Source: Vannielia litorea (GTDB lineage: Bacteria; Pseudomonadota; Alphaproteobacteria; Rhodobacterales; Rhodobacteraceae). Taken from it: a stretch of 64,000 nt of DNA. Position numbers and translations under genes: made by a program. Location: positions 2,790,001 to 2,854,000 of the forward strand of contig NZ_FSRL01000001.1 of NCBI RefSeq assembly GCF_900142295.1, given 5' to 3'. The notes under the pieces were generated by a model. The model was not told the DNA's origin. It saw only the letters and a program-made list of their open reading frames with translations, and did no database searches. Below are positions 22,237-43,839 of the stretch, in pieces (the first letter of the stretch is position 1; every line of letters starts with the position of its first letter).

Positions 22237-22291
22237 ATTAAGCCCTCGCCAGAGGCCGTAGCCGCACGGTGTATTGACGGAGGACGCGCCC

Positions 22292-23512
22292 ATGCCGCTT
22301 GGCACGAACCGCATTGAAGAGAGTGGGCTGCCCCCCATTCATGAGGTCGCAAACCCCCAGGACATCGGCGTCGGCACGCCCGAGATCCGCAGGGGCGATG
22401 CGCTGCGCAGCCTCGTCACCTCGCTGTCGGGGTTTCAGAAGGAGGCGCTGGTGGCCTCGCGCCGTTCCGGAAAGACCTGGCGGATGGTGTCGGACGAGGG
22501 CAAGTATCTCAACGGTCACGATGCCGCCCCGCCGCCGCTCTCGTTCCTGACGGTGGGCATGGTTGCCTCCTACATGAACGAGATCACCGCGCTCGCCCGC
22601 CGCCAGGGCGTTGCGATCCGCCACCTCAGGCTGACGCTCGACAACTACTACACCATGACCGGCTCGATGCAGCAGCGCACCATGATCGGCGGCGCCGAGC
22701 CGGTGGAGCTTCAGGTCGAGATCGACTGTGATCTCGCCGGTGGCGCCTTGACCGAGTTCCTGATGAACGCGGTGCACGCCTCCCCGCTCAACGGGCTGAT
22801 GCGCGGCGAGCACGCGAGCCTCTTCACCCTGTCGAAGAACGGCGTGGAGCTGCCTCCCAGGAAGGTTGCCCGGCTCGGCGCGCCCATGCTCCCCGATCCG
22901 GGCGATGCCGGATCACGGGCCGTGGCCGTGCGCGAAACCGAGGTGCTTCTCACCCACATCGGGATCACCGAGAAGAAGCCGGTGAAAGCCGGCACCGAAA
23001 GCGCCGCCTCCTCGCTCACCGATCACCAGAACCGCCGCCTCAACATTGCCGCAACCGCCGTGCTGCGCGACGACGGGATGAAGGAGATCCGCCAGCAGCT
23101 CTACTCGCCCCACGGCAAGGAGTGGCTGTTTCTTTCCGAAGAGGCCGAGGTTGATGGCGGCAAGGGCCGCGCGCCGGATGCGGCCAGCTACATCTCGGCC
23201 GGGATCGGCTTTTGCTTCATGACCCAGTTCGGCCGTCTCGTGCCGATGCTGGGGCTGGACCTGCCCCGTTACCAGATCATCCAGGATACCCACTTCAGCC
23301 TCGGCGGCGCCTCGGGCGGCACCGGCAAGGCGGGCGAGGCCGACCCGGTCGAGACCCATGTGTACCTGACCACGAACGAGAGCGACGAGGTCGCGCAGGA
23401 GATGCTCGATCTGAGCGAGCAGACCTGCTTTCTGCACGCCTTCTGCCGCACCGACCTGAAAACCAGACTGAAGACCGTGAGCATCCCGGCTTCTTCCACC
23501 ACCGCGGCTTGA
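22292..23512 (+). CDS. Tandem-domain OsmC-like protein 1
   Basis: 406 residues from the ATG at 22292 (GGAGG 8 nt upstream). Two OsmC-like folds are visible. In the first (about 45-185) HDAAPPPLSFLTVGMVASYMNEI is the central-helix equivalent (split near residue 77-98) but has no peroxidatic cysteine. In the second (about 248-395) GRAPDAASYISAGIGFCF carries Cys308 and SEQTCFLHAFC carries Cys379 and Cys385, the two positions used by OsmC/Ohr peroxidases. A GGASGGTGKAGEAD loop lies between. It is the first gene of the pobA-TRAP operon and a paralogue of the next gene. Function in this operon is unknown. Confidence 0.75.
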   Translation: MPLGTNRIEESGLPPIHEVANPQDIGVGTPEIRRGDALRSLVTSLSGFQKEALVASRRSGKTWRMVSDEGKYLNGHDAAPPPLSFLTVGMVASYMNEITALARRQGVAIRHLRLTLDNYYTMTGSMQQRTMIGGAEPVELQVEIDCDLAGGALTEFLMNAVHASPLNGLMRGEHASLFTLSKNGVELPPRKVARLGAPMLPDPGDAGSRAVAVRETEVLLTHIGITEKKPVKAGTESAASSLTDHQNRRLNIAATAVLRDDGMKEIRQQLYSPHGKEWLFLSEEAEVDGGKGRAPDAASYISAGIGFCFMTQFGRLVPMLGLDLPRYQIIQDTHFSLGGASGGTGKAGEADPVETHVYLTTNESDEVAQEMLDLSEQTCFLHAFCRTDLKTRLKTVSIPASSTTAA

Positions 23513-23520
23513 GGGGGCGC

Positions 23521-24705
23521 ATGATGTCGAAAATTGGCAAGAACCTGATCGCGGAGAGCGGCCTTGCGCCGTTCTTCAAACTTGCAAACGCCGATGAAGT
23601 CGCCATCGACGCGCCGGACAACCGCAAGGGCGACGCCCTGCGCACATGGGTGCGCGCGCTTTCGGGCTTTCAGAAGGAGGCGCTGGTGCGCTCGGCCCGC
23701 ACCGGCGACACCTGGCGGCTTGTCTCCGATGAAGGCCCCTATCTGAACGGTCACGATGCCGCCCCCTGCCCGCTTGCCTTCCTGTCGTCGGGGATGGTCG
23801 CCAGCTTCATGAACGAGATCACCGCGCTGGCCGAGCTGCGCGGCGTCACGATCCGCAAGCTGAAGCTGATCCAGGACAACTACTACACGATGAAGGGCTC
23901 CATGCCCAAGCGCACCATGGTCGGCGGCGCCGAGAACATCGACCTCCAGGTCGAGATCGACTGCGACCTGAGCGACGCCGAGCTGCACCAGTTCCTGCTC
24001 GATGCCACCTTCGCCTCGCCGCTCAACGGGTTAATGCGCGGGCAGCTGGAAAGCCTCTTCAAGCTCGGCAAGAACGGCACCGAACTGCCCACCGCCAAGG
24101 TGGCCGAACTGGATGCCCCGCTCTTTCCCGACCCCGGCAACCATTTTGCACGGGCGCTGCCCGAGATCGGTGCGCTCAAGCTGATGGAGCCTGTCGGCCC
24201 GACGCCGAAGAAGGAGGTCGTGCTGGGCACCGCCACGGGCGGCTCCTCGCTGGCCGACGAGCAGGACAGGCGGCTGAACATCGGTGCCGTCGCGGTGCTG
24301 CGCGAGGATGGCATCAAGGAAATCCGGCAGATGCAGTATTCGCCCCGGGGCACCTCGTTTCGCTTTCTGTCGTCCGAGGATGGCCGTGCGCCCGATGCCA
24401 ACACGCTGATTTCTGCCGGGATCGGCTTTTGCTTCATGACCCAGTTCGGGCGCTTCGTGTCGATGCTCAAGCTCGACCTGCCCGATTATCGCATCGTGCA
24501 GGACACCCACTTCAGCCTCGGCGGCGCCTCGGGCGGCACCGGCAAGGCGGGCGAGGCCGACCCGATCGAGACCCATGTCTACCTGGAGACAAGCGAGAGC
24601 GACGAGACCGCGCAGGAGATGCTCGATATCTCCGAGCAGACCTGCTTTCTGCATGCCTTCTGCCGCACCGATCTGAAAACCAGGCTGCGGGTGCGGAGGG
24701 TCTGA
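23521..24705 (+). CDS. Tandem-domain OsmC-like protein 2
   Basis: 394 residues from the ATG at 23521, 8 nt after its paralogue. It shares FQKEALV, YLNGHDAAP, MVAS-MNEITALA, DNYYTM, GGAE, SPLNGLMRG, GFCFMTQFGR, QDTHFSLGGASGGTGKAGEAD and SEQTCFLHAFCRTDLKTRL with the first protein. Cys304, Cys375 and Cys381 in the second domain are conserved, while the first domain again lacks the helix cysteine. The pair probably forms a heteromer or acts on sequential substrates. Thiol peroxidase activity, or an unknown reaction on an aromatic intermediate, is possible; I cannot decide. Confidence 0.75.
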   Translation: MMSKIGKNLIAESGLAPFFKLANADEVAIDAPDNRKGDALRTWVRALSGFQKEALVRSARTGDTWRLVSDEGPYLNGHDAAPCPLAFLSSGMVASFMNEITALAELRGVTIRKLKLIQDNYYTMKGSMPKRTMVGGAENIDLQVEIDCDLSDAELHQFLLDATFASPLNGLMRGQLESLFKLGKNGTELPTAKVAELDAPLFPDPGNHFARALPEIGALKLMEPVGPTPKKEVVLGTATGGSSLADEQDRRLNIGAVAVLREDGIKEIRQMQYSPRGTSFRFLSSEDGRAPDANTLISAGIGFCFMTQFGRFVSMLKLDLPDYRIVQDTHFSLGGASGGTGKAGEADPIETHVYLETSESDETAQEMLDISEQTCFLHAFCRTDLKTRLRVRRV

Positions 24706-24706
24706 G

Positions 24707-25882
24707 ATGAAGACGCAGGTCTGCATCATCGGCGGCGGCCCGGCGGGCCTCATGCTCAGCCACATCCTCGATGCCAACGGCATCGACAACCTGGTGCTGG
24801 AGCGCCAGACGAAGGCGTATGTTCTGGGCCGGATCCGCGCCGGCGTGCTCGAGCACAACACCGTCGAGATGCTGCGCGACTACGGTCTGGGCGAGCGGAT
24901 GGACCGGGAGGGCATGCCCAAGGACGGCACCCAGATCCTCTGGGAGAACCGCCCCGATTTCTTCATCGACGTGAAGAAATGGACCGGCAAGCAGATGATG
25001 GCCTGGGGCCAGACCTACATCACCGAGGATCTCTACGCCGCCCGCGAGCGCGATGGCGGCGCGGTGATCTGCGAGGCCGCCGACGTGACCCTGCACGACA
25101 TCGAAAGCGATGCGCCGCATGTGACCTATGTGAAGGACGGCACCACTCATCGGATCGACTGCCGCTTCATCGCCGGATGCGACGGCTTTCACGGCCCCTC
25201 CCGGCAGGCGATCCCCAGGAGCCACCGGCGCGAGTTTCTGCGCGAGTATCCCTTTGGCTGGATGGGGGTGATGGTGGAGAAGCCGCCGGTGAGCAATTTC
25301 ACCTATGTCTACCACAGCGACGGCATGGCGATGGCGGCCCAGCGCACCCCCATGCTCAGCCGCTACTACGTGCAGGCCCCGATCACCGACAAGCCGGGAG
25401 ACTGGAGCGACGACCGTTTCTGGGAGACCCTGCTGCATCGCTTTCCGCCGGATGTGGCCGCACGGATCCAGACCGGCCCGACCATCGAGAAATCCATGGC
25501 CCCGCTGCGCAGCTTCGTCTCCGAGCCGATGCGCCACGGCAGCCTGTTTCTGGCCGGCGATTCCGCCCATATCGTGCCCCCCACCGGCGCGAAGGGGCTG
25601 AACCTCGCCTTCTCCGATGTCTTCTACCTGCAACGCGCGCTGGTCGCCTTCTTCAAGACCGGGCAGGGCGCGCTGATCGAGCGCTACTCCGACACCGCGC
25701 TGCGCCGCGTGTGGTCGGCCGAAAACATCTCGTGGCGGCTGACCAAGATGCTGCACGTGTTTCCGGGCGAGGACCCGTTCGAGCAGAAGATCCGCGAAAA
25801 CGACTACGACCTGCTGCTGCATTCGGAGGCCGCCCAGCACGCGCTGGCCTACGAGTACATCGGCTTGCCGTTCGAAGACTGA
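24707..25882 (+). CDS. pobA: 4-hydroxybenzoate 3-monooxygenase-like flavoprotein (PobA family)
   Basis: 391 residues, collinear with PobA (394). FAD/NADPH motifs: GGGPAG near 9, RIRAGVLEH near 42, GCDGFHGPSR near 157, GDSAHIVPPTGAKGLNLA near 283. Compared with Pseudomonas PobA from memory, Tyr201, Arg214, Tyr222 and Tyr385 are kept (Tyr200, Arg213, Tyr221 and the Tyr of EYIGLPF), but Ser212, which helps hold the benzoate carboxylate, is Ala211. It should hydroxylate a 4-hydroxyaryl acid ortho to the hydroxyl, giving a protocatechuate-type catechol. Starts 1 nt after the OsmC gene stop. Confidence 0.88.
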   Translation: MKTQVCIIGGGPAGLMLSHILDANGIDNLVLERQTKAYVLGRIRAGVLEHNTVEMLRDYGLGERMDREGMPKDGTQILWENRPDFFIDVKKWTGKQMMAWGQTYITEDLYAARERDGGAVICEAADVTLHDIESDAPHVTYVKDGTTHRIDCRFIAGCDGFHGPSRQAIPRSHRREFLREYPFGWMGVMVEKPPVSNFTYVYHSDGMAMAAQRTPMLSRYYVQAPITDKPGDWSDDRFWETLLHRFPPDVAARIQTGPTIEKSMAPLRSFVSEPMRHGSLFLAGDSAHIVPPTGAKGLNLAFSDVFYLQRALVAFFKTGQGALIERYSDTALRRVWSAENISWRLTKMLHVFPGEDPFEQKIRENDYDLLLHSEAAQHALAYEYIGLPFED

Positions 25883-25939: not shown

Positions 25940-26923
25940 ATGAACAAACTGACGGCACTCACGACGGCGGCCTGCCTCTTGGCCGCACCCGCGCTCCAGG
26001 CCAAGGACCTCGCGCTCTCGTACTTCATGGGGCCGAACCATCCGCTCAACGAGGCGGTGTTCACCCCCTTCGCGGAGAAGCTGGCCGAGGTCTCGGGCGG
26101 GCAGCTGACCGTGACGCAATACCCCGGCGGTGCGCTCAACTCCTCGCCGCCCAAGCAGTATTCGATCCTGCTCGACGGCATCGCCGATGTTGCCTTCCAC
26201 CTGCCCGGCTACACCGCCCAGATCTTCCCGATCACCACCGCGATCACCACGCCCGGCATGTGCGGCGATGCGCTGGAGTGCACCGAGGCGATGTGGCGCG
26301 CCATCGAGCCGATCGAGGCCGAGTTCGATGCCAAGCTGCTGGCCGTCTGGGCCAATGACCCGCAGGTGCTTTATACCAAGGACAAGGCGGTGCGGACGCT
26401 CGAAGACATGCAGGGCCTGCTGGTGCGTGTGACCTCGGCGCAGGACATTCCCTTCACCGAAGCCCTCGGCGCCTCCTCGGTCTCCCAGCCGGTCTCGGAG
26501 ATCAACCAGAACCTCGCCAACGGCGTCGTCGACGCCGTCTCCATCGACCCCTCGGCCACCATGTCGTTCAAGATGCATGAGCCGGCCAACTACATGACCA
26601 CCAACATCCCCGGTGCCGGCAGTGCCTTTGTTCTGATGATGAACAAGGGTGTCTACAACGCGCTCACCGAGGAGGAGAAGGGCTGGGTCGACGAGGCCTC
26701 GGGCAAGTGGCTCTCGATGAAGGGCGGCCAGATCTACCGCGACATGGCCGAACGCGGCATCGAGGTTGCGCGCGAGAACGGCGTGGAGATCATCGAGCTT
26801 TCCGCCGAGGAACGGGCCCGCTGGGATGCGGCGATCCAGCCTGCCCTCGATGAGTGGATGGCCACCGACCTCGGCCAGGGCATGACCGGGGCCGACCTCG
26901 CCCGCCTGTTCAAGGGCGAGTGA
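25940..26923 (+). CDS. dctP: TRAP transporter substrate-binding protein DctP
   Basis: 327 residues with a Sec signal (LTALTTAACLLAAPALQA). TRAP DctP features: GPNHPLNEAVFTPFAEKLAEVSGGQL (split), the YPGGALNSSPPKQYSILLDGIADV region, and LLVRVTSAQDIPF where the Arg near residue 160 normally binds a substrate carboxylate. GGAGG is 6 nt before the start at 25940. It would capture the organic acid metabolised by the surrounding enzymes; an aromatic carboxylate is inferred from pobA and the dehalogenase. Confidence 0.92.
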   Translation: MNKLTALTTAACLLAAPALQAKDLALSYFMGPNHPLNEAVFTPFAEKLAEVSGGQLTVTQYPGGALNSSPPKQYSILLDGIADVAFHLPGYTAQIFPITTAITTPGMCGDALECTEAMWRAIEPIEAEFDAKLLAVWANDPQVLYTKDKAVRTLEDMQGLLVRVTSAQDIPFTEALGASSVSQPVSEINQNLANGVVDAVSIDPSATMSFKMHEPANYMTTNIPGAGSAFVLMMNKGVYNALTEEEKGWVDEASGKWLSMKGGQIYRDMAERGIEVARENGVEIIELSAEERARWDAAIQPALDEWMATDLGQGMTGADLARLFKGE

Positions 26924-26926
26924 GCC

Positions 26927-27463
26927 ATGAGCGCCGCCAAGCCGGCAAAGGCCACCGCCCCCTGGGGGCGGTGGTTCGGCACCATCGCCAATGGCTTCGC
27001 GGTCCTGGGCGGGGTCGCGCTTTTTGCGCTGATGTTCATCACCGTGGTGGCGGTCTTCTGGCGCTACGCCCTGCGTGATCCGATCTTCGGCATCGGCGAC
27101 ATGTCGTCGCTCTCGCTTGTCGTCATCGTGGCCGCCGGCGTGACCTATGGCGCGGTGCACGGGGCGCATATCAGCGTGGATATCCTCTCGGCCGTGGCCG
27201 GGCGCCGGACGAAGCGGCTCACCGACCTTCTGGTGCGCGCCCTCAGCGTGGCCATCTGCGGCTTCGCGGCATGGGCCCTGGCCGTCAAGGGCGCCTGCGG
27301 CCTGCCCTGCGGCGCGGTGACGCCGAACCTCGGCATCGTCCACACGCCGTTCTACTACCTGCTCTCCGCCGCGCTGGCGGTGATGACGGCCCTGCTGCTC
27401 TACCAGCTCCTGACCGGCCTCAGGCACTGGTCGGGCCAAGACCCCAACGAGGACAATGGCTGA
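26927..27463 (+). CDS. dctQ: TRAP transporter small permease DctQ
   Basis: 178 residues with four membrane segments (about 20-42, 60-80, 100-122 and 140-162), the DctQ topology. The segment FWRYALRDPIFGIGDMSSL is the family's conserved first loop (canonical W-x-E-E replaced by GIGDM). Starts 3 nt after dctP and its stop overlaps dctM's start by one base. Works as the scaffold partner of DctM. Confidence 0.9.
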   Translation: MSAAKPAKATAPWGRWFGTIANGFAVLGGVALFALMFITVVAVFWRYALRDPIFGIGDMSSLSLVVIVAAGVTYGAVHGAHISVDILSAVAGRRTKRLTDLLVRALSVAICGFAAWALAVKGACGLPCGAVTPNLGIVHTPFYYLLSAALAVMTALLLYQLLTGLRHWSGQDPNEDNG

Positions 27464-28767
27464 TGGATACCACGACGATTGCCCTTCTCGGCTTTGCCTC
27501 CCTTCTTGTCCTGCTGTTCCTGCGCATGTCGGTGGGGGCCGCCATGCTGCTGGTCGGCGCGGTGGGCATCTACCTGATCCGCCCGGCCGCCAGCCTGCCG
27601 GTGGTGGCGGGCGAGATCTTTGGCGAGGCCACCAACTACAATCTCACGATCCTGCCGCTCTTCATCCTGATGGGCAACCTGGCCGGTATCTCGGGCATGA
27701 GCCGCGATCTCTACGACGCCGCCCACAGCTGGATCGGCCACCTCAAGGGCGGACTCGCCTCGGCCACCATCGTCGGCTGCGCGGGCTTCTCGGCGCTCTC
27801 GGGCTCCTCGCTCGCGGCAGCGCTCACCATGGGCCGCGTCAGCCTGCCGGAGATGCAGCGCTTCAACTACCACGACGGGCTGGCCACCGGCGCCATCGCG
27901 GCGGGGGGCACGCTGGGCATTCTGATCCCGCCGTCCGCGGGCTTCGTGATCTACGCGATCCTCACCGAAGAGAGCATCGGACGGCTGTTCATGGCCGGCA
28001 TCCTGCCCGGCCTCCTGCTCACCGCGCTCTTCATCGTGGCCATCTACATCGTGGTCTCGCTGAAGCCTTCCAAGGCTCCGCGCGCGATGGGCGCGGAGAG
28101 CCTGGCGCAGCGGATGGCCGCCCTCCTGCGGGCGCTCTGGATCATCGGGATCATCGTGCTCACCATCGGCGGCATCTACACCGGCGTCTTCTCGGCGGTC
28201 GAGGCGGCGGGCATCGGGGCCTTCCTGGCGCTGCTGGTCTGCCTGCTGCGCCGCTCGCTGACATGGGCCAACCTGAAGGAGGTGACCACCAGCACGCTGC
28301 AATCCACCGGCATGGTGTTCTTCATCCTTTTCGGGGCCTTCGTGTTCAAGACCTTCGTCGGCTTCACCGGGGTCACCTATGCCATGTCCCAATGGGTCGC
28401 GGCGCAGGGGTTCGGCGCGATGGAGGTGGTCATCGCGATCCTGCTGGTCTTCATCGTGCTGGGCACGTTCATGGAGGGCTTCGCCATCCTCGTGCTGACG
28501 GTGCCGCTGGTGCAGCCGCTGCTCGAAACCCTGGGCGTCGACCTGATCTGGTTCGGGGTGCTGATGGTGATCGTGCTCGAAATGGCGCTGATCTCGCCGC
28601 CGGTCGGGGTGAACGTCTTCGTGGTGAAGGGCATCGCGCCCACGGTCTCGCTGAACACGATCTTCCGCGGCATCTGGCCGTTCTGGATTGCCATGTTCGT
28701 CGCCGTGGCGCTGATCCTGCTGATCCCCGGCATCGCCCTTTACCTGCCCGACAGGATGTTTGGCTGA
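27463..28767 (+). CDS. dctM: TRAP transporter large permease DctM
   Basis: 434 residues from the ATG at 27463 (TGATG with the dctQ stop). About twelve membrane segments of the ion-transporter superfamily. Conserved DctM blocks: TILPLFILMGNLAG near 64, GCAGFSALSGSSLAAALTMG near 105, AAGGTLGILIPPSAGFVIYAI near 145-165 and LISPPVGVNVFVVKG near 378. Provides sodium-coupled uptake with DctP and DctQ. A 76-nt spacer to the next gene contains GC-rich dyads but no clear terminator. Confidence 0.93.
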   Translation: MDTTTIALLGFASLLVLLFLRMSVGAAMLLVGAVGIYLIRPAASLPVVAGEIFGEATNYNLTILPLFILMGNLAGISGMSRDLYDAAHSWIGHLKGGLASATIVGCAGFSALSGSSLAAALTMGRVSLPEMQRFNYHDGLATGAIAAGGTLGILIPPSAGFVIYAILTEESIGRLFMAGILPGLLLTALFIVAIYIVVSLKPSKAPRAMGAESLAQRMAALLRALWIIGIIVLTIGGIYTGVFSAVEAAGIGAFLALLVCLLRRSLTWANLKEVTTSTLQSTGMVFFILFGAFVFKTFVGFTGVTYAMSQWVAAQGFGAMEVVIAILLVFIVLGTFMEGFAILVLTVPLVQPLLETLGVDLIWFGVLMVIVLEMALISPPVGVNVFVVKGIAPTVSLNTIFRGIWPFWIAMFVAVALILLIPGIALYLPDRMFG

Positions 28768-28843
28768 GGCCAAAGGACCGCGCGTCCCGGCCGCCCGCCG
28801 GGCCGCGCCCCCACAAGAAGAAACAGAGTTGGAGAATACCGGC

Positions 28844-30343
28844 ATGAGCAACATCGACCGGATCGTCGAAACCGGGATCTGGGTGAACGGCGAGAGCCGC
28901 CCCGCCTCGGGCGGCGCGATGCACGACCTCTACAACCCCGCCCGCCCCGCCGAGCTTGTCGGCCGCGCCGCCGCAGCCACCGCCGAGGATGTGAATGCCG
29001 CGGTCGAGGCTGCCCATGCAGCCTTCCCGACTTGGGCCGACCTGGGCTTCGAGGCGCGCGCCGCGCTCCTGCGCCAGGTTGCGGCGGCGCTCACCGCCGA
29101 CGAGGAAGACGTCAAGTACCGCTCCCGCCTCTTCACCCGCGAGCACGGCAAGATCGCCCGCGAGACCCTGCTCGAAATGTCCCGCCTTGGCGACCGCTTC
29201 ATGCTGGCCGCCGCCTATGGCGAGCGCATGGCGGTGGACGAGCGGATGGGGCCCGCCAAGGCCGGCCCGCCGTTCGACACCATCATCACCCGCCAGCCGC
29301 GCGGCGTTGCGGCGCTGATCGTGCCGTGGAACTGGCCGCTCTCGATCCTCGGGGCCAAGCTGCCCCAGGCTCTGGTGGCGGGAAACACGGTGGTGGTGAA
29401 ACCGGCCCAGAATTCCTCGCTGGCCCCCATGCTGACGCTCGAGATCATCGCCCGGATGCTCCCGCCCGGCGTGGTCAATGTCATCACCGGCTCCAGCGGC
29501 GAGATCGGAGACGCGCTCACCGGTCATCCGCTGGTGCGCAAGGTCAACTTCACCGGCTCGGTGCCGGTGGGCCGCCACGTGATGAAGGTTGCCGCAGAGA
29601 ACCTTACCCCCGTGACCCTCGAGCTTGGCGGCAATGACGCGGCGCTGATGCTCGACGACATCGAGCTGGACGAGGCCGCCTTCGACCGCATGTACTGGGG
29701 CGCCTTCGGCTCTTCGGGGCAGATCTGCATGGCGCTGAAGCGGATGTACGTGCACGAAAGCCGCTACGACGAGGTGATCGAGGGCTTCACCGCCGCCTGC
29801 GAGCGGGCCGTGGTGGGCGACGGGCTGCTGCCCGAAACCACGATGGGGCCGGTGAACAACGCCAGGCAGCTGAAGGTCGTTACCGACATGATCGCCGAGG
29901 CCCGCGCCAAGGGGGCCGAGGTGCGCGAATGCGGGCAGGTGCCCGACGAGGCGCTCTATGCGGGGGGCGGCTACTTCCAGAAACCCACGATTGTCTACAA
30001 CGCCGATCCGGGCCTCTCCATCGTGCGCGAGGAGCAGTTCGGCCCCTGCCTGCCGATCATGACGTTCCGCAGCGACGAGGAGGCCATCGCGCTGGCCAAT
30101 GACAGCGCCTTCGGCCTCTGCTCCTCGGTCTGGACCCCGGACCCCGAGCGCGCCCTGCGCGTCGCCCGCAGGCTCGAGGCGGGATACACCTATCTCAACG
30201 GCCATGGGCCCATGGCACAGGACGGGCGCGGCCCCTTCGGTGGCTTCAAGAACTCGGGCATCGGGCGCAACCTCGGCTATGAGGGCGTGCTGGCCTTCAC
30301 CGAGGCCCATTCGATCTCCGGGCCCGGAGGTTTCTTGCTGTGA
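28844..30343 (+). CDS. NAD(P)-dependent aldehyde dehydrogenase
   Basis: 499 residues from the ATG at 28844 (GGAG 8 nt upstream). ALDH superfamily residues: Asn in VPWNWPLS, catalytic Glu260 in LELGGNDAA, catalytic Cys295 in GSSGQICMALKR, and EEQFGPCLPI near 390. Ile-Cys-Met around the nucleophile suits a benzaldehyde- or semialdehyde-type substrate but is not diagnostic. In this operon it would oxidise the aldehyde released by the downstream TPP-dependent enzyme to an aryl carboxylate for the dehalogenase and PobA. Overlaps the next gene as GTGA. Confidence 0.9.
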   Translation: MSNIDRIVETGIWVNGESRPASGGAMHDLYNPARPAELVGRAAAATAEDVNAAVEAAHAAFPTWADLGFEARAALLRQVAAALTADEEDVKYRSRLFTREHGKIARETLLEMSRLGDRFMLAAAYGERMAVDERMGPAKAGPPFDTIITRQPRGVAALIVPWNWPLSILGAKLPQALVAGNTVVVKPAQNSSLAPMLTLEIIARMLPPGVVNVITGSSGEIGDALTGHPLVRKVNFTGSVPVGRHVMKVAAENLTPVTLELGGNDAALMLDDIELDEAAFDRMYWGAFGSSGQICMALKRMYVHESRYDEVIEGFTAACERAVVGDGLLPETTMGPVNNARQLKVVTDMIAEARAKGAEVRECGQVPDEALYAGGGYFQKPTIVYNADPGLSIVREEQFGPCLPIMTFRSDEEAIALANDSAFGLCSSVWTPDPERALRVARRLEAGYTYLNGHGPMAQDGRGPFGGFKNSGIGRNLGYEGVLAFTEAHSISGPGGFLL

Positions 30344-30657: not shown

Positions 30658-32352
30658 ATGAAGGATCTCAACAACGGCATCTCGGGCGGCGAGCTGCTGC
30701 TGCGCAGCCTGAAGGCACAGGGGATCGACTACTTTCTCGCCAATGCGGGCAGCGACTTTGCCCCGGTCGTCGAGGCCTATGCGCGGGTGGGCACCGGCTC
30801 GCCCGATCTGCCCGAGCCGCTGGTCGTGCCGCATGAGGCCGCGCTGGTGGCCATGGCCCACGGCTACTGGCTGATGACGGGCCGCCCGCAGGCCGCCATG
30901 GTGCATGTCAACGTGGGGCTCGCCAATGGCGTGATGGGCATGATCAACGCCCGCGCCGACGATGTGCCGGTGATCCTGATGTCGGGCCGCACCCCGCTCA
31001 CCGAGCACGACAGGCCCGGCGCCCGGCGGACGCCCATCCAGTATGGGCAGGAGCAGTTCGACCAGGCGATGATGGTTCGTGACATGGTGAAGTGGCACTT
31101 CGAGCTGCGCTACCCCGAGACCGTGCCTGCGCTGGTCTCCCGCGCGCTGGCGATCGCCAGGAGCGAGCCCGCCGGCCCGGTCTACCTGAGCCTGCCGCGT
31201 GAACCCCTGACCGAGCTGACCGCCCCCGACCCCGAGACCGGCCCGCTTCAGGTGCCCTCCCGGCAGGGCGCGGCCGACGCCGAAGATATCGCCACCGCCG
31301 CCCGCTGGCTGGCCGAAGCCGAGCGCCCGCTCGTCATCTGCCAGCGCGGCGATCCGGGCGGCAAGGTGGCCGCCGCCCTCGAGCAGATCGCCGAAGCGCA
31401 CGCGCTGCCCGTGGCCGAGGTCTTTGCCACCCGCAAGGTATTTCGCGGGACCCACCCGATGGCGGTCGGGCCCGACCTCTCCAGGCGGCTGCCCGAGGCC
31501 GACGTGGTGCTCGTGGTCGATGCGCCGGTCGCCTGGATCGAGCACCAGAACCGCCCGGCGCCCGGCGCCAAGGTCATCCACCTCGGCCCCGACCCGCTGC
31601 ACAGCCGCATGCCCGTGCGCTCCTACCGCACCACCCTCGGCCTTGCCGGCAACACCGCCGCCACCCTGGGCGCGCTTGACGCAGCGCTCCGCGCCCTGCC
31701 CCGACCGCCGCGCGATACCGCGCCGATTGCCGAGGCCCATGCCGCCTACCTCGCCCGCGTCGCCAAGGCGGCAGAGGCGGGCTCCACGGGGGCGGCCAGC
31801 AAGGCCTTCGTTGCCCAATGCGTTGCCGCGATCCTCGGGGAGGATGGCGTGGTCTTTACCGAGCGCGGCGCGCCCGCGCCCTTCTATCCGGGGCTCAAGG
31901 CCAACCGGTTCTTCGGCAACACCCCCGCCGGCGGCCTGGGCTGGGGCGTGCCTGCCGCGCTCGGCGCGCAACTGGCCGACCGCGACCGGCTCGTGGTGAG
32001 CGTGGTCGGCGACGGCTCGCATCTCTTTGCCAACCCGGTGGTCTGCCACCAGATCGCGCGGGCCAACAAGCTCCCGCTACTGACCGTGGTGCTCGACAAC
32101 TCCGGCTGGGACGCGGTGCGGCTCTCCGCCCTCGAGGTCTATCCCGACGGCGTGACCGCTGGCGCCGAGACCGTGCCGCTGACCGAGTTCGGCGACAACC
32201 CCGACCATGCCGCCGTGGCCGAGGCCTGCGGGCTCTGGGCCCGCCGCGTCGAGCGGGCCGAGGACCTGCCCGCCGCGCTGGAAGAGGCCCTGGAGGAGAT
32301 CCGGGGCAACCGCAGGCCCGCGCTCCTCAACGTCGCCGTCCGGCCTGAGTAA
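30658..32352 (+). CDS. TPP-dependent decarboxylase / acetolactate-synthase-like enzyme
   Basis: 564 residues, three-domain TPP enzyme. Glu60 in VPHEAALVAMAHGYW is the cofactor-activating glutamate; the central domain has RLPEADVVLVVDAP; the TPP/Mg site is Gly451-Asp-Gly with Asp480-Asn481 (usual Asn-Asn). Benzoylformate decarboxylase, oxalyl-CoA decarboxylase and acetolactate synthase share this plan. Next to an aldehyde dehydrogenase and pobA, decarboxylation of an aryl-2-oxoacid to an arylaldehyde is the most economical proposal. It ends the plus-strand operon; a hairpin follows the stop by 8 nt. Confidence 0.82.
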   Translation: MKDLNNGISGGELLLRSLKAQGIDYFLANAGSDFAPVVEAYARVGTGSPDLPEPLVVPHEAALVAMAHGYWLMTGRPQAAMVHVNVGLANGVMGMINARADDVPVILMSGRTPLTEHDRPGARRTPIQYGQEQFDQAMMVRDMVKWHFELRYPETVPALVSRALAIARSEPAGPVYLSLPREPLTELTAPDPETGPLQVPSRQGAADAEDIATAARWLAEAERPLVICQRGDPGGKVAAALEQIAEAHALPVAEVFATRKVFRGTHPMAVGPDLSRRLPEADVVLVVDAPVAWIEHQNRPAPGAKVIHLGPDPLHSRMPVRSYRTTLGLAGNTAATLGALDAALRALPRPPRDTAPIAEAHAAYLARVAKAAEAGSTGAASKAFVAQCVAAILGEDGVVFTERGAPAPFYPGLKANRFFGNTPAGGLGWGVPAALGAQLADRDRLVVSVVGDGSHLFANPVVCHQIARANKLPLLTVVLDNSGWDAVRLSALEVYPDGVTAGAETVPLTEFGDNPDHAAVAEACGLWARRVERAEDLPAALEEALEEIRGNRRPALLNVAVRPE

Positions 32353-32431: not shown

Positions 32432-35400
32432 TCAGAGATCGAGCTCCAGCACGCCGTTCTCCATTGCTGCACGCGACTGGCACAGGATGATCCCGGTCTC
32501 GCGCTGCGCCTTGGACAGCACAAAATCCCGGTGCTCCACCTCGCCCGAGACCAGCCCGCACTTGCAGACCCCGCAGATCCCGTCGGAGCACTTCAGGTCG
32601 ATCGGGTAGCCCTTCTCCAGCAGCACATCCGCCGCCGAGCGGTCGGCCGGAACGGTGAACTGCTTGCCCGACTTCGTGAGCCGGATCTCGAACGGATGAT
32701 TCACGTAGTCCGGCTGCTCGGGCACGGCGAAATACTCCAGGTGCCGCGCCTCCTCCGGAAAACCGGCCGCCTCGGCCGCCTCCATCACCGCGCTCATGTA
32801 GCGGTCGCCGCCGCAGGTATAGAGGTGCCACCCGGGTTCGTAGCCCGCCATGATTGCCGACAGGTCCAGCCGCGTGCCCTCGCAGGAGACATGAAGCTGC
32901 ACCCTGTCGGCCCAGGGAAAGCCCGCGAGATCGGGCAGGAAGCCCATCGTCTCCCGCGACCGCCCCGAGTAATGCAGCTCGAAGGACCTGCCCTGCGCGT
33001 GCAGCTCATGGGCCATGGCGATCATCGGGGTGATGCCGATGCCGCCGCCCAACAGCACCGAATGGGTCGCCTCCGGCACCAGCGGAAAGTGGTTGATCGG
33101 CTTGGAAACGAAGACCCGCCGCCCCTCGCTGAAGATCCGTTGCAGCAGTTTGGAGCCGCCCCGCCCGGACTCCTCGCGCAGCACCGCGATCTGGAAGTGG
33201 TCACGATCGGCCGGATTGCCCGAGAGCGAGTATTGCCGCAGGAAATCCGGCGCCACCACGATATCCAGATGCGCCCCGGCCTGCCATTCGGGCAGCGGCT
33301 TGCCGTCCACCGGGCGGAACTCGTATTTCACCACCCCCTCCGCAATGGGCTCCACCTTCGAGACCGTCACCTGGATCACCGGGCTCTCGCCATCGGCGGT
33401 GTAGCGGTGCAGGAACGGCTCCAGCGTGCCCTCGCTGGCCCGCCGCCGGTACTCATCGGCGGTGATCATCGCCTGGTAGGCCTCGATCCCCGCCTCCCGA
33501 TCCATCGGGAACGGGTAGGGGTGCGGCGGCGGCGCCAGCGGCGCGGGATAGACGGCCAGCGTCTGATCCTCGTATTTCAGGTTCAGATCCTTTTGCAGCG
33601 ACCGGGCGTTCACCTCCCGCTCGGTCGGGCGATAGGCCCCGTCCTTCTGCAACTCCAGATCCCACCACCATTTCTTGACCGGGTTCAGGCTGCCGTTCTC
33701 GACGTAGTCGTCCAGCCTGGCGAGCACCGGCGCGGCCTGCGGCATGTGCATCGCCACCCAGCGGAACGGCTCCTCCTTGAACAGGCCCTCGAGGTTCCAC
33801 GGGCAGGTCTTCATGCAGCGCCCGCACATCGCGCCGCCCGGCGTGGTGATCCGGTAGGTGGTGCATTTCTGGCTGTCGGATTTCCAGATCTCGTAGCCGT
33901 TGAACATCAGCTTCGGCCCGGCGGTGATTGCCCCGGAGGGGCACTCGCGGGCGCATTTGTTGCAGCTGTTGCAGAACGTTTGCAGGCCGAAGTCGATGGG
34001 CTTGTCATGGGCCATCGGCAGGTCTGTCGTCACCACGCCCGATTTCAGCCGCGGCCCGAGGAAGGGGTTCAGGATCACCTCGCCGATCCGGCTGACCTCG
34101 CCCAGGCCCGCGAGCAGAAGCAGGGGCGGCTGAAGCACCTCGCCATCCATCACCGAATGGGCCTTGGCCTTGTAGCCGAGGTTGCGGATCTGCCGGGCGA
34201 TCACCCCGCCCAGAAGCGAGAACCGCAGGTAGGCCCGCATGGATTGCGCCACCGCGATCCAGTCATCGCCCGAGGAGCCCTCCATCGTCTCGTAGCCCTG
34301 GTCCACGATCATGCTGATCGCGTGGTCATGCTCGGGCACGATCGGCTCGCCCCGCGCGTCATGGCTGTACCATGTCCACTCCGGGCAGCGCGAGATCCCC
34401 ACCGCATCCAGCCCCAGAAAGTAGCTCGTGGCCTTCACCAGCTCCGCCGCCTCCTGCGGGTCGATCCGCGCCTTCCGGGGCGCGGACTCGCCATCCTGCA
34501 GCAGGGTGAAGGCCCCCAGTGCCCGCCGCTGCGCGGTCGAGGGCGCGGCCTTGAACACGTAGTGCCCGCCGCGCGCGCCATCCTGCACGTGCTTGCCCAG
34601 ATCGCCGAAGACCGAGCGGGCAAACATGTCGGCCCGCTTGGGCACGCGTGCCACGTTGGGCTCGTCGATATAGGTCGTGGGCTGATCGACCCGCTTGAGC
34701 TTTTCGAAGGGATGCGCCCCGTCCACGAAGCGCCGGCCCTTGTAGGGCACCGCGTTGGAGGCATTCTTGGCGAAGCCCCGCCCCAGCTTCCACGCCGTGC
34801 CGAAGGCGCTCTTTGGTTGCTGGCCCAGCGGCACCAAGGGCAGGTCCGGCGCCAGCTCGAAGCGGGTGGTGATCGCCGCCAGCCCGAAACGCGTGCCGAT
34901 GTAGGGGTGGGTCAGCACGCCGTTCTCCACCGTCACCAGCCCCGCCGCCACGGCGAGCCTGTTCAGGTCCACATCCGAGCAGGAGGCCGTATGCGCCCGC
35001 GCGTCACGGCCCAGCACCCGCAGGTAGTTGGCCAGCACCGTCGCTGTCTCCGTGGCCAGCAGGGCCGCGCGATGGGCGTAGGCATCGGCAAACCAAGCCG
35101 TCCCCGGCTCATCCTCCATCGGGTCGCGCGGGTTTTCATAGAGAAAGACCACCGCATGGCTGTGCCCCTCGATGGAGGAAGGCGGCGCCTCGGCCGACTC
35201 CTTCAGATCGGCCATGATCTGATCCACCCCGGCGGCAAATGTCTTGGTCTGGCGGGTCTGCAACTCCGAGGCCAGCCGCGCGACATCGGGGTTGCGGTGC
35301 GGCTCGGCGAGCACGGCGGCCTCCGGCAAGAGGCACACCCCCGTCACCGCCGCATCGGCGAAGTATGAGAAGGCCTTGATGTGGTTGGCGCGCTCCACCG

Positions 35401-35644
35401 GATCCGTCGGGCAGGCCGAAACCGCGGGGTTCACGATGCCGTCGCGGATCACGTCCATCATCGCCTGATGCTCGCGCATCGCGTTGACGATGGACTCCGG
35501 CGCCTCCGAGCGGTCGAACGACAGCGGCTCGAAGGCCGGCACCGCAGCCAGGTCGGGCATCACCCGCGTCCGCGCCAGCAGCTCCGAGGGGTAGCTGCCC
35601 ATGTGGACGGGGCGGTTCTTGCTGGAAAACAGTCGGATGCCCAT
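32432..35644 (-). CDS. rdhA: Self-sufficient catabolic reductive dehalogenase (RdhA fused to reductase)
   Basis: 1070 residues. The RdhA domain (1-690) has two 4Fe-4S motifs, Cys558-x2-Cys561-x2-Cys564-x3-Cys568 and Cys594-x12-Cys607-x2-Cys610-x3-Cys614. Ser468, Tyr472, Lys534 and Arg598 fall at a constant offset of 46 from the active-site Ser422, Tyr426, Lys488 and Arg552 remembered for NpRdhA. No Tat signal is present, so it is cytoplasmic. The C-terminal reductase (about 755-1070) has RQYSLSGNP for FMN, GGGIGITPM for NAD(P)H and a plant-type 2Fe-2S site, Cys1019-x4-Cys1024-x2-Cys1027 and Cys1055. This is the architecture of BhbA-type enzymes that debrominate 3-bromo- or 3,5-dibromo-4-hydroxybenzoate using cobalamin. 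Confidence 0.93.
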   Translation of the reverse strand: MGIRLFSSKNRPVHMGSYPSELLARTRVMPDLAAVPAFEPLSFDRSEAPESIVNAMREHQAMMDVIRDGIVNPAVSACPTDPVERANHIKAFSYFADAAVTGVCLLPEAAVLAEPHRNPDVARLASELQTRQTKTFAAGVDQIMADLKESAEAPPSSIEGHSHAVVFLYENPRDPMEDEPGTAWFADAYAHRAALLATETATVLANYLRVLGRDARAHTASCSDVDLNRLAVAAGLVTVENGVLTHPYIGTRFGLAAITTRFELAPDLPLVPLGQQPKSAFGTAWKLGRGFAKNASNAVPYKGRRFVDGAHPFEKLKRVDQPTTYIDEPNVARVPKRADMFARSVFGDLGKHVQDGARGGHYVFKAAPSTAQRRALGAFTLLQDGESAPRKARIDPQEAAELVKATSYFLGLDAVGISRCPEWTWYSHDARGEPIVPEHDHAISMIVDQGYETMEGSSGDDWIAVAQSMRAYLRFSLLGGVIARQIRNLGYKAKAHSVMDGEVLQPPLLLLAGLGEVSRIGEVILNPFLGPRLKSGVVTTDLPMAHDKPIDFGLQTFCNSCNKCARECPSGAITAGPKLMFNGYEIWKSDSQKCTTYRITTPGGAMCGRCMKTCPWNLEGLFKEEPFRWVAMHMPQAAPVLARLDDYVENGSLNPVKKWWWDLELQKDGAYRPTEREVNARSLQKDLNLKYEDQTLAVYPAPLAPPPHPYPFPMDREAGIEAYQAMITADEYRRRASEGTLEPFLHRYTADGESPVIQVTVSKVEPIAEGVVKYEFRPVDGKPLPEWQAGAHLDIVVAPDFLRQYSLSGNPADRDHFQIAVLREESGRGGSKLLQRIFSEGRRVFVSKPINHFPLVPEATHSVLLGGGIGITPMIAMAHELHAQGRSFELHYSGRSRETMGFLPDLAGFPWADRVQLHVSCEGTRLDLSAIMAGYEPGWHLYTCGGDRYMSAVMEAAEAAGFPEEARHLEYFAVPEQPDYVNHPFEIRLTKSGKQFTVPADRSAADVLLEKGYPIDLKCSDGICGVCKCGLVSGEVEHRDFVLSKAQRETGIILCQSRAAMENGVLELDL

Positions 35645-35685: not shown

Positions 35686-35711
35686 TTGCCTAAGTTAATT
35701 ACTTTTGGCAA
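35686..35711. promoter_or_regulatory. Palindromic operator candidate between rdhA and marR
   Basis: A 26-bp imperfect palindrome with outer arms TTGCC and GGCAA, an inner AA/TT pair and a TAATTA core; 8 of 13 half-positions are symmetric. It lies 42 bp before the rdhA start and 46 bp before the marR start in an AT-rich patch unlike its surroundings. Size and symmetry suit a MarR dimer, so joint repression of rdhA and marR is inferred. Confidence 0.6.
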
Positions 35712-35756: not shown

Positions 35757-36233
35757 GTGGCAGACGACTTGGCGGACACGTCCCGCACGGCGCCCTATGC
35801 CCTGCGCCAGCAAATCGGCTTCAAGCTCAGCCGCACCGCCCGGCTCATGCAGCAGCGGCTGGAAGCGACGCTGGCCACCCAGGGCCTCACCCGGCTCACA
35901 TGGTGTGTGCTCAGCAGCATCGGGCTCGAGAACAGATCCAGCCCCTCCGGCATCGCCGACAATCTGGGCGTCACCCGGCCCATGCTGTCGCGGCTCATCA
36001 AGGCGATGTCCCGCGACGGGTTGATCGAGGTGACGCTCGATCAGAACGATGGGCGCAACCGGCAACTGAGCCTCACGGCCGAGGGCGAGGCCAAACTGCG
36101 CGCCTGCCACCCCTTGGTGCAGGAGAACAACGCGCATTTTTCCCGCAAGCTGTCTGCGAAGCAGATGCAAAGCCTCCATGCGCTGATCGACAGGCTCATC
36201 GAGGGCGAGGACGCCTATCTCGACAGCCTGTAG
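35757..36233 (+). CDS. MarR-family transcriptional regulator
   Basis: 158 residues from a GTG at 35757 (ACGGAG 7 nt upstream). Winged HTH: NRSSPSGIADNLGVTRPMLSRLIKAM (split near residue 60-85) and the wing DQNDGRNRQLSLTAEG. N- and C-terminal helices give the usual dimer. Divergent from the dehalogenase gene over a palindrome. MarR proteins often sense phenolic acids, so a halogenated hydroxybenzoate or its dehalogenated product is the likely effector. Confidence 0.9.
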   Translation: MADDLADTSRTAPYALRQQIGFKLSRTARLMQQRLEATLATQGLTRLTWCVLSSIGLENRSSPSGIADNLGVTRPMLSRLIKAMSRDGLIEVTLDQNDGRNRQLSLTAEGEAKLRACHPLVQENNAHFSRKLSAKQMQSLHALIDRLIEGEDAYLDSL

Positions 36234-36237: not shown

Positions 36238-37137
36238 CTACCAGTCCGACCGCCCGCCGAGATGTTCGACCAGGAAGTCGATGAAGGTGCGCGTCTTCGG
36301 GGTCAGCACGTTCGACCGGGGGTAGACCAGCCACAGCACCGAACGGTCGTTCGAACGCCAGTCTGGAAGCACGCGCACAAGGCGCCCGGCGGCGATCTCA
36401 TGCGCCACGCTCCACAGCGAATTGATCGAAAGGCCGGCCCCGGCCAGGGTTGCCTCGCGCTGCGCCGCGCCATCGTCGACCAGCACCCGGCAGGTCATTG
36501 CACGCGGATCGAGCGGCACCGTCGCGCCCTCGGGCCCGATCAGCTCGCGCCTGTCCGGCCTGCGCCACGAGATGAACCTGTGCGCATGCAGGGCCTCCGG
36601 CGTTTCGGGCATGCCGTGCTGCTCCAGATAGCGGGGCGCAGCACAGAGCACCCGCCTGTCCTCCGACAGCTTGCGCCCCTTCAGGCTGCTCTCGGCCAGC
36701 GGCGCACTGCGCAGCGCAAGATCGAAACTGCCCTCGATGGCGTCGAACCGCGTGTCCGAGAGGCGCAGATCGAGGGTTAGCTCCGGGTATCGGTCATGGA
36801 ACTCCGGCAGGAGCGGCATGATGTGCAGCTGGGCGAAGCTGCTCGGCGCGGCAAACCGCAACGTGCCTTGCGGCCCGGCACCGACACCGCCCAGCGCGGC
36901 CCGTGCGGCCTCGGCCTGTGCCAGTATTTCCCTTGCATAGGGCAGAAAATCCGCGCCTTCGATGGAGAGCGCCACCTTGCGCGTGGTCCGCCGCAGCAAT
37001 TCCACGCCGAGCTCCTGTTCGAGTTTAGCCAGCCGTGCGCTGGCAACCGCCGGGGCCAGTCCCAGCTCGCGCCCCGCTGCGCTGATGTTCAGCCGCTCCG
37101 CAGCCATCACGAAGAGCCGCAGATTGTCCGTTTCCAT
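36238..37137 (-). CDS. LysR-family transcriptional regulator
   Basis: 299 residues. N-terminal HTH (residues 1-60: LRLFVMAAERLNISAAG, then LGLAPAVASARLAKLEQELG) and a substrate-binding domain (about 90-295) of the CrgA/AaeR-like group. It is divergent from the nitroreductase gene (start 113 bp away) and convergent with marR, only 4 nt from its stop. Control of the nitroreductase is inferred. Its N-terminus is clearly related to the LysR relic at 142-309. Confidence 0.88.
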   Translation of the reverse strand: METDNLRLFVMAAERLNISAAGRELGLAPAVASARLAKLEQELGVELLRRTTRKVALSIEGADFLPYAREILAQAEAARAALGGVGAGPQGTLRFAAPSSFAQLHIMPLLPEFHDRYPELTLDLRLSDTRFDAIEGSFDLALRSAPLAESSLKGRKLSEDRRVLCAAPRYLEQHGMPETPEALHAHRFISWRRPDRRELIGPEGATVPLDPRAMTCRVLVDDGAAQREATLAGAGLSINSLWSVAHEIAAGRLVRVLPDWRSNDRSVLWLVYPRSNVLTPKTRTFIDFLVEHLGGRSDW

Positions 37138-37249
37138 GGGCGATTATCCTTTGAAACCGAAAACTCAAACCTGTTTTGCCAGGATTTTATCGCCATGCGC
37201 AAACGTTATGTCTCGCGGCGAACAACATCCAATGCCAATGGAGCGGCCC

Positions 37250-37957
37250 ATGAACGCTATCACCACATCCACCCTCGATGTTCGCGCCCAGATCATCGAC
37301 GCCTTCAACTTCCGCCATGCCACCAAGGTCTTCGACGCCGATCGCAAGGTCGATGACGAGACCTTCGCGACCATTCTCGAAGCCGGCCGCCTCTCGCCCA
37401 CGTCTTTCGGCCACGAGCCCTTCCGGATCCTGCTTGTCCAAAGCCCGGAAAAGCGGGAGCTTCTTCGCGCGTTCTCCTGGGGCGCCAACGGCATGATGAG
37501 CGGCACGTCCGGCCAGCTGGGAACCGCCAGCCACTTCGGGATCATCCTCGCCAGCACCGCCGCAACCATGACGGCCGGTTCGGAGTACCTCGTGGATCAC
37601 TACCGCCACGTGAAGCACCTGCCGGAAGACATCATCGACGTCTTCAACGGCGCCTACGGCAAGTTCCAGCGTATCGACCACGACATCACGACCGACCGCG
37701 AAATCACCGACTGGTCGGGCAAGCAGGCCTATATCGTGCTGGCCAACATGATAACCGCAGGCGCGCTGCTTGGCGTCGACTCCTGCCCGATCGAGGGTTT
37801 CGACATGGCTCAGACCACCGACACCCTCGGCGCGCACTTCGGCGTCGATACAAGCCAATGGAAACCCGCCGTGATGTTCGCCTTCGGATACCGCGCCAAG
37901 GAGCCCGAGTTTCCCAAGTCCCGCCGGACGATGGAAGACGTCGTGGCCTGGTTCTGA
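37250..37957 (+). CDS. Nitroreductase-family NAD(P)H flavoprotein (NfsB-like)
   Basis: 235 residues from the ATG at 37250, chosen because GGAG lies 6 nt upstream; two earlier in-frame ATGs lack spacing. FMN-binding blocks: FNFRHATKVFDADRKV near 20, EAGRLSPTSFGHEPFRILLV near 45-64 and the C-terminal FAFGYRAKEPEFPKSR. The family reduces nitroaromatics, quinones or enones; some members act as dehalogenases (iodotyrosine deiodinase) or support quinone reduction. No closer function can be read. Divergent from a LysR gene. Confidence 0.87.
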   Translation: MNAITTSTLDVRAQIIDAFNFRHATKVFDADRKVDDETFATILEAGRLSPTSFGHEPFRILLVQSPEKRELLRAFSWGANGMMSGTSGQLGTASHFGIILASTAATMTAGSEYLVDHYRHVKHLPEDIIDVFNGAYGKFQRIDHDITTDREITDWSGKQAYIVLANMITAGALLGVDSCPIEGFDMAQTTDTLGAHFGVDTSQWKPAVMFAFGYRAKEPEFPKSRRTMEDVVAWF

Positions 37958-38228: not shown

Positions 38229-39256
<1,028 letters not shown>

Positions 39257-39260
<4 letters not shown>

Positions 39261-40309
39261 TGGCCGTGACCTGCCTTTGAGGTGGCGCCGGGGAGGGCCG
39301 CAACGGTTTCGGCGAAATGGCAGGCGACCTGGTGCTCGGCCTTGCCGAAGGCACGCAAGGCCGGTGCCTCGGTGCGGCACTGGTCGCGGGCGAAACCGCA
39401 TCGCGGATGAAACGGGCAGCCGGCGGGGAGATTGGCGAGATCGGGTGGCTGGCCGGGGATCGGCGTCAGCCGCTGGCCGGACATCTGGTGCGGGATCGAG
39501 TTGAGCAGGCCCTGGGTGTAGGGATGCGCCGCATTGCCGAAGATCGACCTGACATCGGCTGTTTCGACGACCTTCCCGGCATACATGACGCAGACTCGGT
39601 CCGCGACCTCGGCGGCGACCCCCATGGAATGGGTGATGATCACCAGGCCGACCCCGGTCTGCTCCCGGAGATCGCGCAGCAAGGCGAGGATCTGGGCCTC
39701 GACGGTAACGTCCAGCGCCGTCGTGGGCTCGTCGGCGATGATCAGCTCCGGGTTCACGGCAATGGCCATCGCGATCAGCAGCCGCTGGCGCATCCCCCCC
39801 GAAAACTCGTGCGGGTAGCTGTTGAACCGGCTTTCCGCATCCGGGATGCCGACCTTGCGCAGCATCTCGAGCGCGCGGGCATTGGCCGAGGCCTTGGACA
39901 TGCCCATGTGAACCCGCGACATCTCGGCCAGCTGGAAGCCGACGGTGTAGACCGGGTTCAGCGCCGAGAGCGGATCCTGCATCACGATGCCGATATGGCG
40001 CCCGCAGATCTTTCGTCTTGCGCGGTCGGAGAGCTCGAAGAGGTTCTGATTGTCGAAGCGGGCCGACCCGCCGGTCACGTGGCCCGGCGGCGTATCGAGG
40101 ATACCCGTCACCGCTTCGAAGGTGATGCTCTTGCCGGATCCGCTTTCGCCCAGAACCACCAGGGTCTCGCCGCGCTTCACCGTCAGGCTGACGCCATTGA
40201 CGGCGTGGACGACGCGCGTGCCGAGCCGGAACTCCACACGCAGGTCGCGGATGTCGAGCAGGTCGCCGGCGGGCGCGCGGCGCTCGGGGGTGTTGCCCGG
40301 TTCGGTCAC
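39257..40309 (-). CDS. Dipeptide/oligopeptide-type ABC transporter ATP-binding protein (DppD/OppD-like)
   Basis: 350 residues. Walker A GESGSGKSI near 55 (Ile after Lys-Ser), Q-loop MQDPLSALNPVYTVG, signature FSGGMRQRLLIAMA, Walker B LIIADEP, His in ITHSMGVAAEV, and the PxHPYTQGLLNSIP and CPFHPRCGFARDQC tail typical of OppD/DppD. Overlaps dppC-like and dppF-like genes by 4 bp. Works as a heterodimer with the downstream ATPase. Confidence 0.92.
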
Positions 40310-41304: not shown

Positions 41305-41326
41305 GGTGTGCCGATCTCTTGAGGGA

Positions 41327-42244: not shown

Positions 42245-42304
42245 CTGTCTCTCCAGTTTCGCCTCTCCGGCCCGGCCTCGAGCCGGAGAGGCGAGGTCGG
42301 CCGA

Positions 42305-43810: not shown

Positions 43811-43839
43811 GGTTTTCTCTCCTCCCAAAATTCTTGTGT

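Follow-up and report, generated by a model that had tools for sequence, protein, structure and literature searches.

A predicted self-sufficient catabolic reductive dehalogenase encoded beside aromatic-catabolism genes in Vannielia litorea

Introduction

Among the described catabolic reductive dehalogenases (RdhAs), the characterised self-sufficient enzyme JtRdhA from Jhaorihella thermophila is driven by NADPH and active in air; it accepts bromo- and iodophenols, is inhibited by the chloro analogues, and lets E. coli W grow on 3-bromo-4-hydroxyphenylacetate (PMC10463259). Ros_A3X954 from Roseobacter sp. MED193, a shorter RdhA without a reductase, debrominates 2,6-dibromophenol and is inactivated by exposure to oxygen, and the Discussion of the same paper describes putative homologues of bhbA, the gene for the Comamonas enzyme BhbA, as widespread in the Roseobacter clade (PMC13101508). 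In the structures of NpRdhA, four residues (S422, Y426, K488 and R552) have substrate-binding and proton-donor roles, with Y426 and K488 forming the implicated proton donor dyad (PMC7565698). Here, we compare these systems with rdhA, located at 32432-35644 on the minus strand of a 64,000-nucleotide window of the V. litorea chromosome (assembly GCF_900142295.1, contig NZ_FSRL01000001.1, positions 2,790,001 to 2,854,000). As judged from its sequence, this gene encodes an intact, well-conserved member of the published self-sufficient catabolic RdhA type. We propose, with a probability of about 0.75, that the enzyme is cytoplasmic, relies on scavenged cobalamin (vitamin B12) and most likely converts an ortho-brominated 4-hydroxy-aromatic acid to 4-hydroxybenzoate for growth. 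The enzyme type itself has been published; the present analysis adds its pathway context, a pocket specific to the clade and a predicted need for B12.

Results

The window gene encodes an RdhA fused to its own reductase

Coordinates are positions in the window unless another contig or locus is named, residue numbers refer to the 1070-residue RdhA, and NpRdhA equivalents are read from a HMMER alignment. The gene and its features are:

32432..35644, minus strand: rdhA, self-sufficient catabolic reductive dehalogenase, 1070 aa (open reading frame, NCBIfam and PDB matches, predicted fold)
34229..34243, minus strand: codons Ser468 to Tyr472, equivalent to NpRdhA Ser422 and Tyr426 (alignment)
34043..34045, minus strand: codon Lys534, equivalent to NpRdhA Lys488 (alignment)
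33851..33853, minus strand: codon Arg598, equivalent to NpRdhA Arg552 (alignment)
33794..33973, minus strand: two 4Fe-4S motifs, residues 558-617, starting at 558 and 594 (Pfam, motif reading)
32444..33385, minus strand: FMN/NAD(P)H/2Fe-2S module, phthalate-dioxygenase-reductase-like, residues 754-1067 (2pia match, predicted fold)

The rdhA frame is uninterrupted, with 1070 codons translated and no internal stop. Residues 1-740 form an NpRdhA-type reductive dehalogenase, which includes the vestigial duplicated N-terminal half of the cobalamin domain also present in NpRdhA, and residues 754-1067 form the phthalate-dioxygenase-reductase-like module, with a 2Fe-2S domain at residues 991-1059 (Pfam). 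The protein scores 186.1 bits against NCBIfam TIGR02486 (reductive dehalogenase; cut-off 160.35) and matches the NpRdhA chains 4ras, 6zxu and 6zy0 at E ~1e-158, and its C-terminal module matches phthalate dioxygenase reductase (2pia) at E = 4e-57. An initial sequence-only reading of this DNA had proposed an RdhA domain with two 4Fe-4S motifs joined to its own FMN/NAD(P)H/2Fe-2S-type reductase, and the TIGR02486, Pfam and 2pia matches bear this out. Moreover, the predicted fold agrees with that of NpRdhA, on which it superposes across 682 of 696 residues.

The same reading had paired Ser468, Tyr472, Lys534 and Arg598 with NpRdhA Ser422, Tyr426, Lys488 and Arg552 at a constant offset of 46, and the HMMER alignment returns exactly these pairs. 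The constancy of the offset, which had been taken for an improbable coincidence, is nevertheless common to 237 of 601 aligned positions, this block of the alignment being free of gaps. We have therefore not used it as independent evidence: it restates a single fact, ungapped homology, and it is the homology that carries weight.

The window clade has a distinct pocket signature

Conservation was scored in 241 sequences, namely 120 listed matches of the window protein, 120 listed matches of BhbA, and BhbA itself. The eight cysteines of the clusters are invariant across all 241, as are S468, Y472, R598 and F341, and K534 and M469 occur in 240. Among the 120 listed matches of the window protein, R337 and V498 are found in 120, Y362 and V465 in 119, M340 in 113, V363 in 111 and A357 in 105; the BhbA residues at positions 337, 498, 362, 465, 340, 363 and 357 are S, A, S, S, F, V and S, respectively. 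As read from these alignments, the window clade has its own, nearly invariant pocket signature, distinct from that of BhbA. A FastTree phylogeny of 43 sequences, rooted on NpRdhA by choice and without support values, parts the window group from the BhbA group, with 8 of the 25 sampled BhbA matches (P0220 to P0236) falling on the window side. The signature that separates the window clade from the bromoxynil (BhbA) clade offers concrete positions that may bear on substrate choice.

RdhA relatives are patchily distributed

Relatives were counted in a genome-contig collection of 84,980 species, and the best 80 of 507 stretches were kept. Enzymes of this kind had been called rare in the sequence-only reading, a description that does not hold: 507 contig stretches encode a relative, and 14 of 61 sampled genomes (the window's own included) give a match at E <= 1e-60, comprising 10 with a full-length fusion, 2 whose matches end short of the reductase and 2 with a reductase-only match. 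At E <= 1e-30, 2737 proteins match among 7999 candidates scored; the 120 listed matches share at least 72% identity, and the unlisted remainder may include reductase-only matches. The host genome carries one RdhA over the cut-off, and none of its six congeners has an RdhA match at E <= 1e-60. Among relatives, the gene is thus patchily distributed without being rare, in keeping with lateral spread. The nearest matches, from Marinovum and other roseobacter-group records, suggest that the host is probably marine.

Genes flanking rdhA

The neighbouring features in the window are:

22274..24705, plus strand: two OsmC-related genes in tandem (NF041052; Pfam/NCBIfam)
24707..25882, plus strand: PobA-like 4-hydroxybenzoate 3-monooxygenase (TIGR02360 537.6 bits, just below the 538.7 cut-off; over the NF006091 cut-off)
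25940..28767, plus strand: tripartite ATP-independent periplasmic (TRAP) transporter, substrate-binding, small and large subunits (binding subunit by Pfam/NCBIfam)
28760..30343, plus strand: aldehyde dehydrogenase (domain search)
30658..32352, plus strand: thiamine pyrophosphate (TPP)-dependent enzyme (NCBIfam NF006203, 596.4 bits against a cut-off of 456)
35686..35711, no strand: imperfect palindrome of 26 bp with 81% complementary arms, in the gap separating rdhA from marR (position and symmetry)
35757..36233, plus strand: MarR-family regulator, divergent from rdhA (domain search)

The OsmC, PobA, TRAP, aldehyde dehydrogenase and TPP genes all run towards rdhA. The two TRAP membrane subunits were named from their position and from tblastn to the annotated TRAP genes of locus L150, and the leading PDB matches of the TPP enzyme are benzoylformate decarboxylases (E ~1e-28). 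MarR relatives adjoin RdhA at other loci as well (L001, 76%; L085, 50%; L150, 39%), and the palindrome is a candidate operator, a function suggested by its position and symmetry alone. A conserved MarR operator was considered and discarded: six upstream stretches aligned poorly (8 of 187 columns invariant), and the sole look-alike among them, besides the window palindrome itself, is a loosely similar stretch in L001. Likewise, a pattern modelled on the window palindrome gave a single match (3 mismatches), which proves nothing because the pattern was drawn from that site.

Further genes were seen in the window. A LysR regulator and a nitroreductase-family gene (36238-37957) adjoin marR, and L085 likewise has a LysR gene next to its RdhA. 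On the minus strand, a thiamine locus at 15817-21191 (NMT1-like, ThiF, ThiG, DAO-type and phosphomethylpyrimidine-kinase genes) follows a TPP riboswitch at 21087-21191, and a separate catabolic cluster at 38229-47449 contains a 2-hydroxyacid dehydrogenase and, by translations alone, an oligopeptide-type ABC transporter, an HpcH-like aldolase and an IlvD-like dehydratase.

The neighbourhood recurs in part beside distant RdhAs

Parts of the OsmC/PobA/aldehyde dehydrogenase/TPP set recur beside distant RdhAs; the set is recurrent, not universal. On Comamonas pBHB, bhbA is accompanied by a frame resembling PobA (53% over 271 residues), LigAB and an aldehyde dehydrogenase (61%), and the TPP enzyme of this plasmid belongs to the same NCBIfam family as that of the window (560.8 bits; 32% identity). 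On Nitratireductor pOM-1, the RdhA (51%) occurs with OsmC (46-50%), aldehyde dehydrogenase (67%), PobA (64%) and ring-cleavage genes, and the window PobA is closer to the PobA of this cluster (64%) than to the host's second PobA (54%; L112). On Aminobacter pANY103b, TRAP and MarR genes adjoin RdhA. PobA, aldehyde dehydrogenase and TPP genes are absent among the annotated features of the plasmid stretches of Jannaschia M317 and Ruegeria TM1040, whose gene tables are incomplete; Ruegeria TM1040 has a 3-oxoadipate enol-lactonase gene ~9 kb from RdhA. De novo clustering of the flanking genes at 81 loci (window included) gave a varied picture, with the largest group besides RdhA spanning at most 12 loci.

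Two side observations concern the same loci. In L066, 5-oxoprolinase-type genes (one PxpA, one PxpC-like; scanned there only) precede rdhA on its own strand, and the gene groups of this type upstream of rdhA each occur in 11 of 81 loci. L135 and L136 also carry OsmC relatives (64%) close to relatives of the TPP enzyme, and in L149 an OsmC relative is close to RdhA.

Ring-cleavage genes and predicted B12 supply in the host

The host genome contains no match over the cut-off for protocatechuate 3,4-dioxygenase beta (best 22.7 bits) and three for the LigB family. Two of these LigB genes, at C1:2.255-2.264 Mb, accompany LigA-like frames, with LigK over the cut-off between them, and one LigA/LigB pair is 52% (LigA) and 60% (LigB) identical to that of pBHB.

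CobN and CobQ have zero matches in the host assembly, which is given as 99.99% complete, and the best CobJ match reaches 58.7 bits against a cut-off of 246.35; in 14 control genomes, none of them closely related to the host, the CobN, CobQ and CobJ searches were positive in 5, 13 and 13, respectively. The host has MetH, which is split over two adjacent frames of 938 and 362 aa (G000:C1:2500622-2504201). It also has two cobalamin riboswitches, one upstream of nrdEF-type genes and the other adjoining a BtuB-like receptor, a BtuC-like permease and a periplasmic binding protein. Together, the three missing synthesis markers and the uptake-like locus indicate that the host probably scavenges B12, as an auxotroph that would import the vitamin.

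Discussion

In the mechanism that we propose, the FMN of the C-terminal module would take up a hydride from NAD(P)H, and single electrons would then reach cobalamin by way of the module's 2Fe-2S cluster and both 4Fe-4S clusters. An ortho-halogenated phenol would be positioned by Ser468, Lys534 and Arg598 so that the cobalamin cobalt binds its halogen, Tyr472 (with Lys534) would provide the proton, and bromide (or iodide) would probably leave. The substrate could be imported via the TRAP transporter; alternatively, the TPP enzyme and the aldehyde dehydrogenase could form it, starting with an aldehyde or keto acid. The 4-hydroxybenzoate product would then be converted to protocatechuate by the neighbouring PobA-like enzyme, and LigAB-type enzymes, whose genes lie at another chromosomal site, would open the ring. 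Since the neighbours recur in part beside distant RdhAs and the host carries protocatechuate 4,5-cleavage genes, debromination to 4-hydroxybenzoate for growth is the most likely role. The gene context also makes 3,5-dihalo-4-hydroxybenzoate, the substrate suggested by the sequence-only reading, plausible, but the pocket differs in part from those of NpRdhA and BhbA.

Several observations weigh against this proposal. All key residues had been thought to be present, which is true of the four catalytic residues and of F291 and M423, whereas NpRdhA F290, K307, F310, P311, A419 and N452 are replaced by M340, A357, Y362, V363, V465 and V498 (K307, F310 and P311 flank an alignment gap, for which HMMER and MAFFT give the same pairing). 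Because the pocket and the clade signature differ from NpRdhA and BhbA, the substrate may differ as well. In addition, rdhA is transcribed against the PobA-TRAP-aldehyde dehydrogenase-TPP genes and therefore does not form one operon with them, and the host carries a second, canonical PobA. Among the 80 closest loci, many of which have cut flanks, matches covering more than half of the query place a TPP gene in 1, PobA in 5, OsmC in 0 and an aldehyde dehydrogenase at >= 60% in 2; the TRAP binding subunit and MarR are each found in 9. Of 244 genomes surveyed within the order, 27 contain relatives of the TPP enzyme, and none of 12 TPP-relative regions (one each from 12 genomes, the host's own paralog included) contains RdhA, four of them holding, by their reading frames, dehydrogenase, FAD-hydroxylase and transporter genes; the TPP gene is therefore not RdhA-specific. 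Finally, the BtuB-like receptor (245.9 bits; cut-off 599.7) and the BtuC-like permease (208 bits; cut-off 334) are best matches below threshold.

The distinct pocket signature would also suit the same chemistry on another natural substrate, such as a brominated phenol or a tyrosine-derived phenylpyruvate/phenylacetate or homogentisate-type compound, bypassing 4-hydroxybenzoate. A homogentisate dioxygenase gene lies ~4 kb from rdhA in L017 (Sulfitobacter sp. EhC04; the sole member of its gene group scanned), this group is present in 7 of 81 loci, and JtRdhA takes 3-bromo-4-hydroxyphenylacetate besides 3,5-dibromo-4-hydroxybenzoate (PMC10463259). However, the neighbours in the window and in two plasmid clusters point to 4-hydroxybenzoate and protocatechuate, and we consider such a substrate unlikely. 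Somewhat less likely still is detoxification, in which toxic bromophenols would lose their halogens but supply no carbon to metabolism: the divergent MarR regulator would fit, as would the lack of homologues of the window's aromatic-catabolism neighbours (the only genes sought) beside most of the 80 closest RdhAs, but a PobA-like gene and a transporter are adjacent and ring-cleavage genes are present in the genome. Membership of the reductive dehalogenase family would allow organohalide respiration with a halophenol as terminal electron acceptor. We rejected this as highly improbable, given that residues 1-60 of RdhA contain no adjacent arginine pair of a twin-arginine translocation (TAT) signal (by reading, without a signal predictor), that an NAD(P)H reductase is fused to RdhA, and that no RdhB-type gene was found among the scanned neighbours, which cover part of the open reading frames in the window.

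Building on debromination to 4-hydroxybenzoate, we tentatively suggest that the OsmC/PobA/aldehyde dehydrogenase/TPP set could represent an undescribed, complete route for brominated aromatics, in which a halogenated aryl-keto-acid, perhaps the keto acid from bromotyrosine or bromo-benzoylformate, would be decarboxylated to a halo-4-hydroxybenzaldehyde, oxidised to the acid, debrominated and mineralised. No such route was recognised among the papers listed for a link between a TPP enzyme, bromotyrosine, dibromotyrosine or aldehyde dehydrogenase and reductive dehalogenases, in a search that left subscription journals mostly outside. If this were true, the clade pocket signature would mark a substrate class other than that of BhbA, and, with a host unable to make B12, bromine cycling would be tied to the vitamin supply from other microbes; the host's breakdown of natural organobromines would depend on B12 that others release. 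Moreover, an intact predicted debrominase has been recovered from raw sequence, of a type that is of interest for brominated-phenol clean-up.

Compared with the known enzymes, the window RdhA shares with Ros_A3X954 its place among Roseobacter-group catabolic RdhAs. MED193 has two RdhAs over the cut-off, a fused 1083-residue frame (L055; 70% to the window protein) and a 537-residue frame (L147). Both published Ros_A3X954 motifs lie in the 537-residue frame and none in L055; with residue 143 taken as the start, the first falls where it was published. By these motifs, Ros_A3X954 is the short MED193 RdhA, unlike the fused window enzyme, and we have not carried its oxygen sensitivity over to the latter. 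NpRdhA (Nitratireductor pacificus; 4RAS, 6ZXU, 6ZXX, 6ZY0, 6ZY1) has the same fold and the same four catalytic residues, but lacks a fused reductase, and its F290, K307, F310, P311, A419 and N452 are not conserved in the window RdhA. The pOM-1 RdhA (Nitratireductor sp. OM-1, L149) is fused, 51% identical and flanked by OsmC, aldehyde dehydrogenase and PobA genes; its cluster differs in that it includes the ring-cleavage genes, and a TPP gene was not found in that stretch. BhbA (Comamonas sp. 7D-2 pBHB, L084) has the same architecture, 51% identity end to end and the same catalytic residues, with aldehyde dehydrogenase, TPP-family and PobA-like neighbours in common, whereas its pocket reads S/F/S/S/S/A against R/M/A/Y/V/V at 337/340/357/362/465/498 and its gene is on a plasmid, the window rdhA being chromosomal. 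Finally, the activity of JtRdhA (WP_104007082) has been measured, whereas that of the window RdhA is predicted; by the published description, JtRdhA has the same reductase fusion, no TAT signal and the Y426/K488/R552 equivalents, and its host is described as marine, as the window host probably is (PMC10463259).
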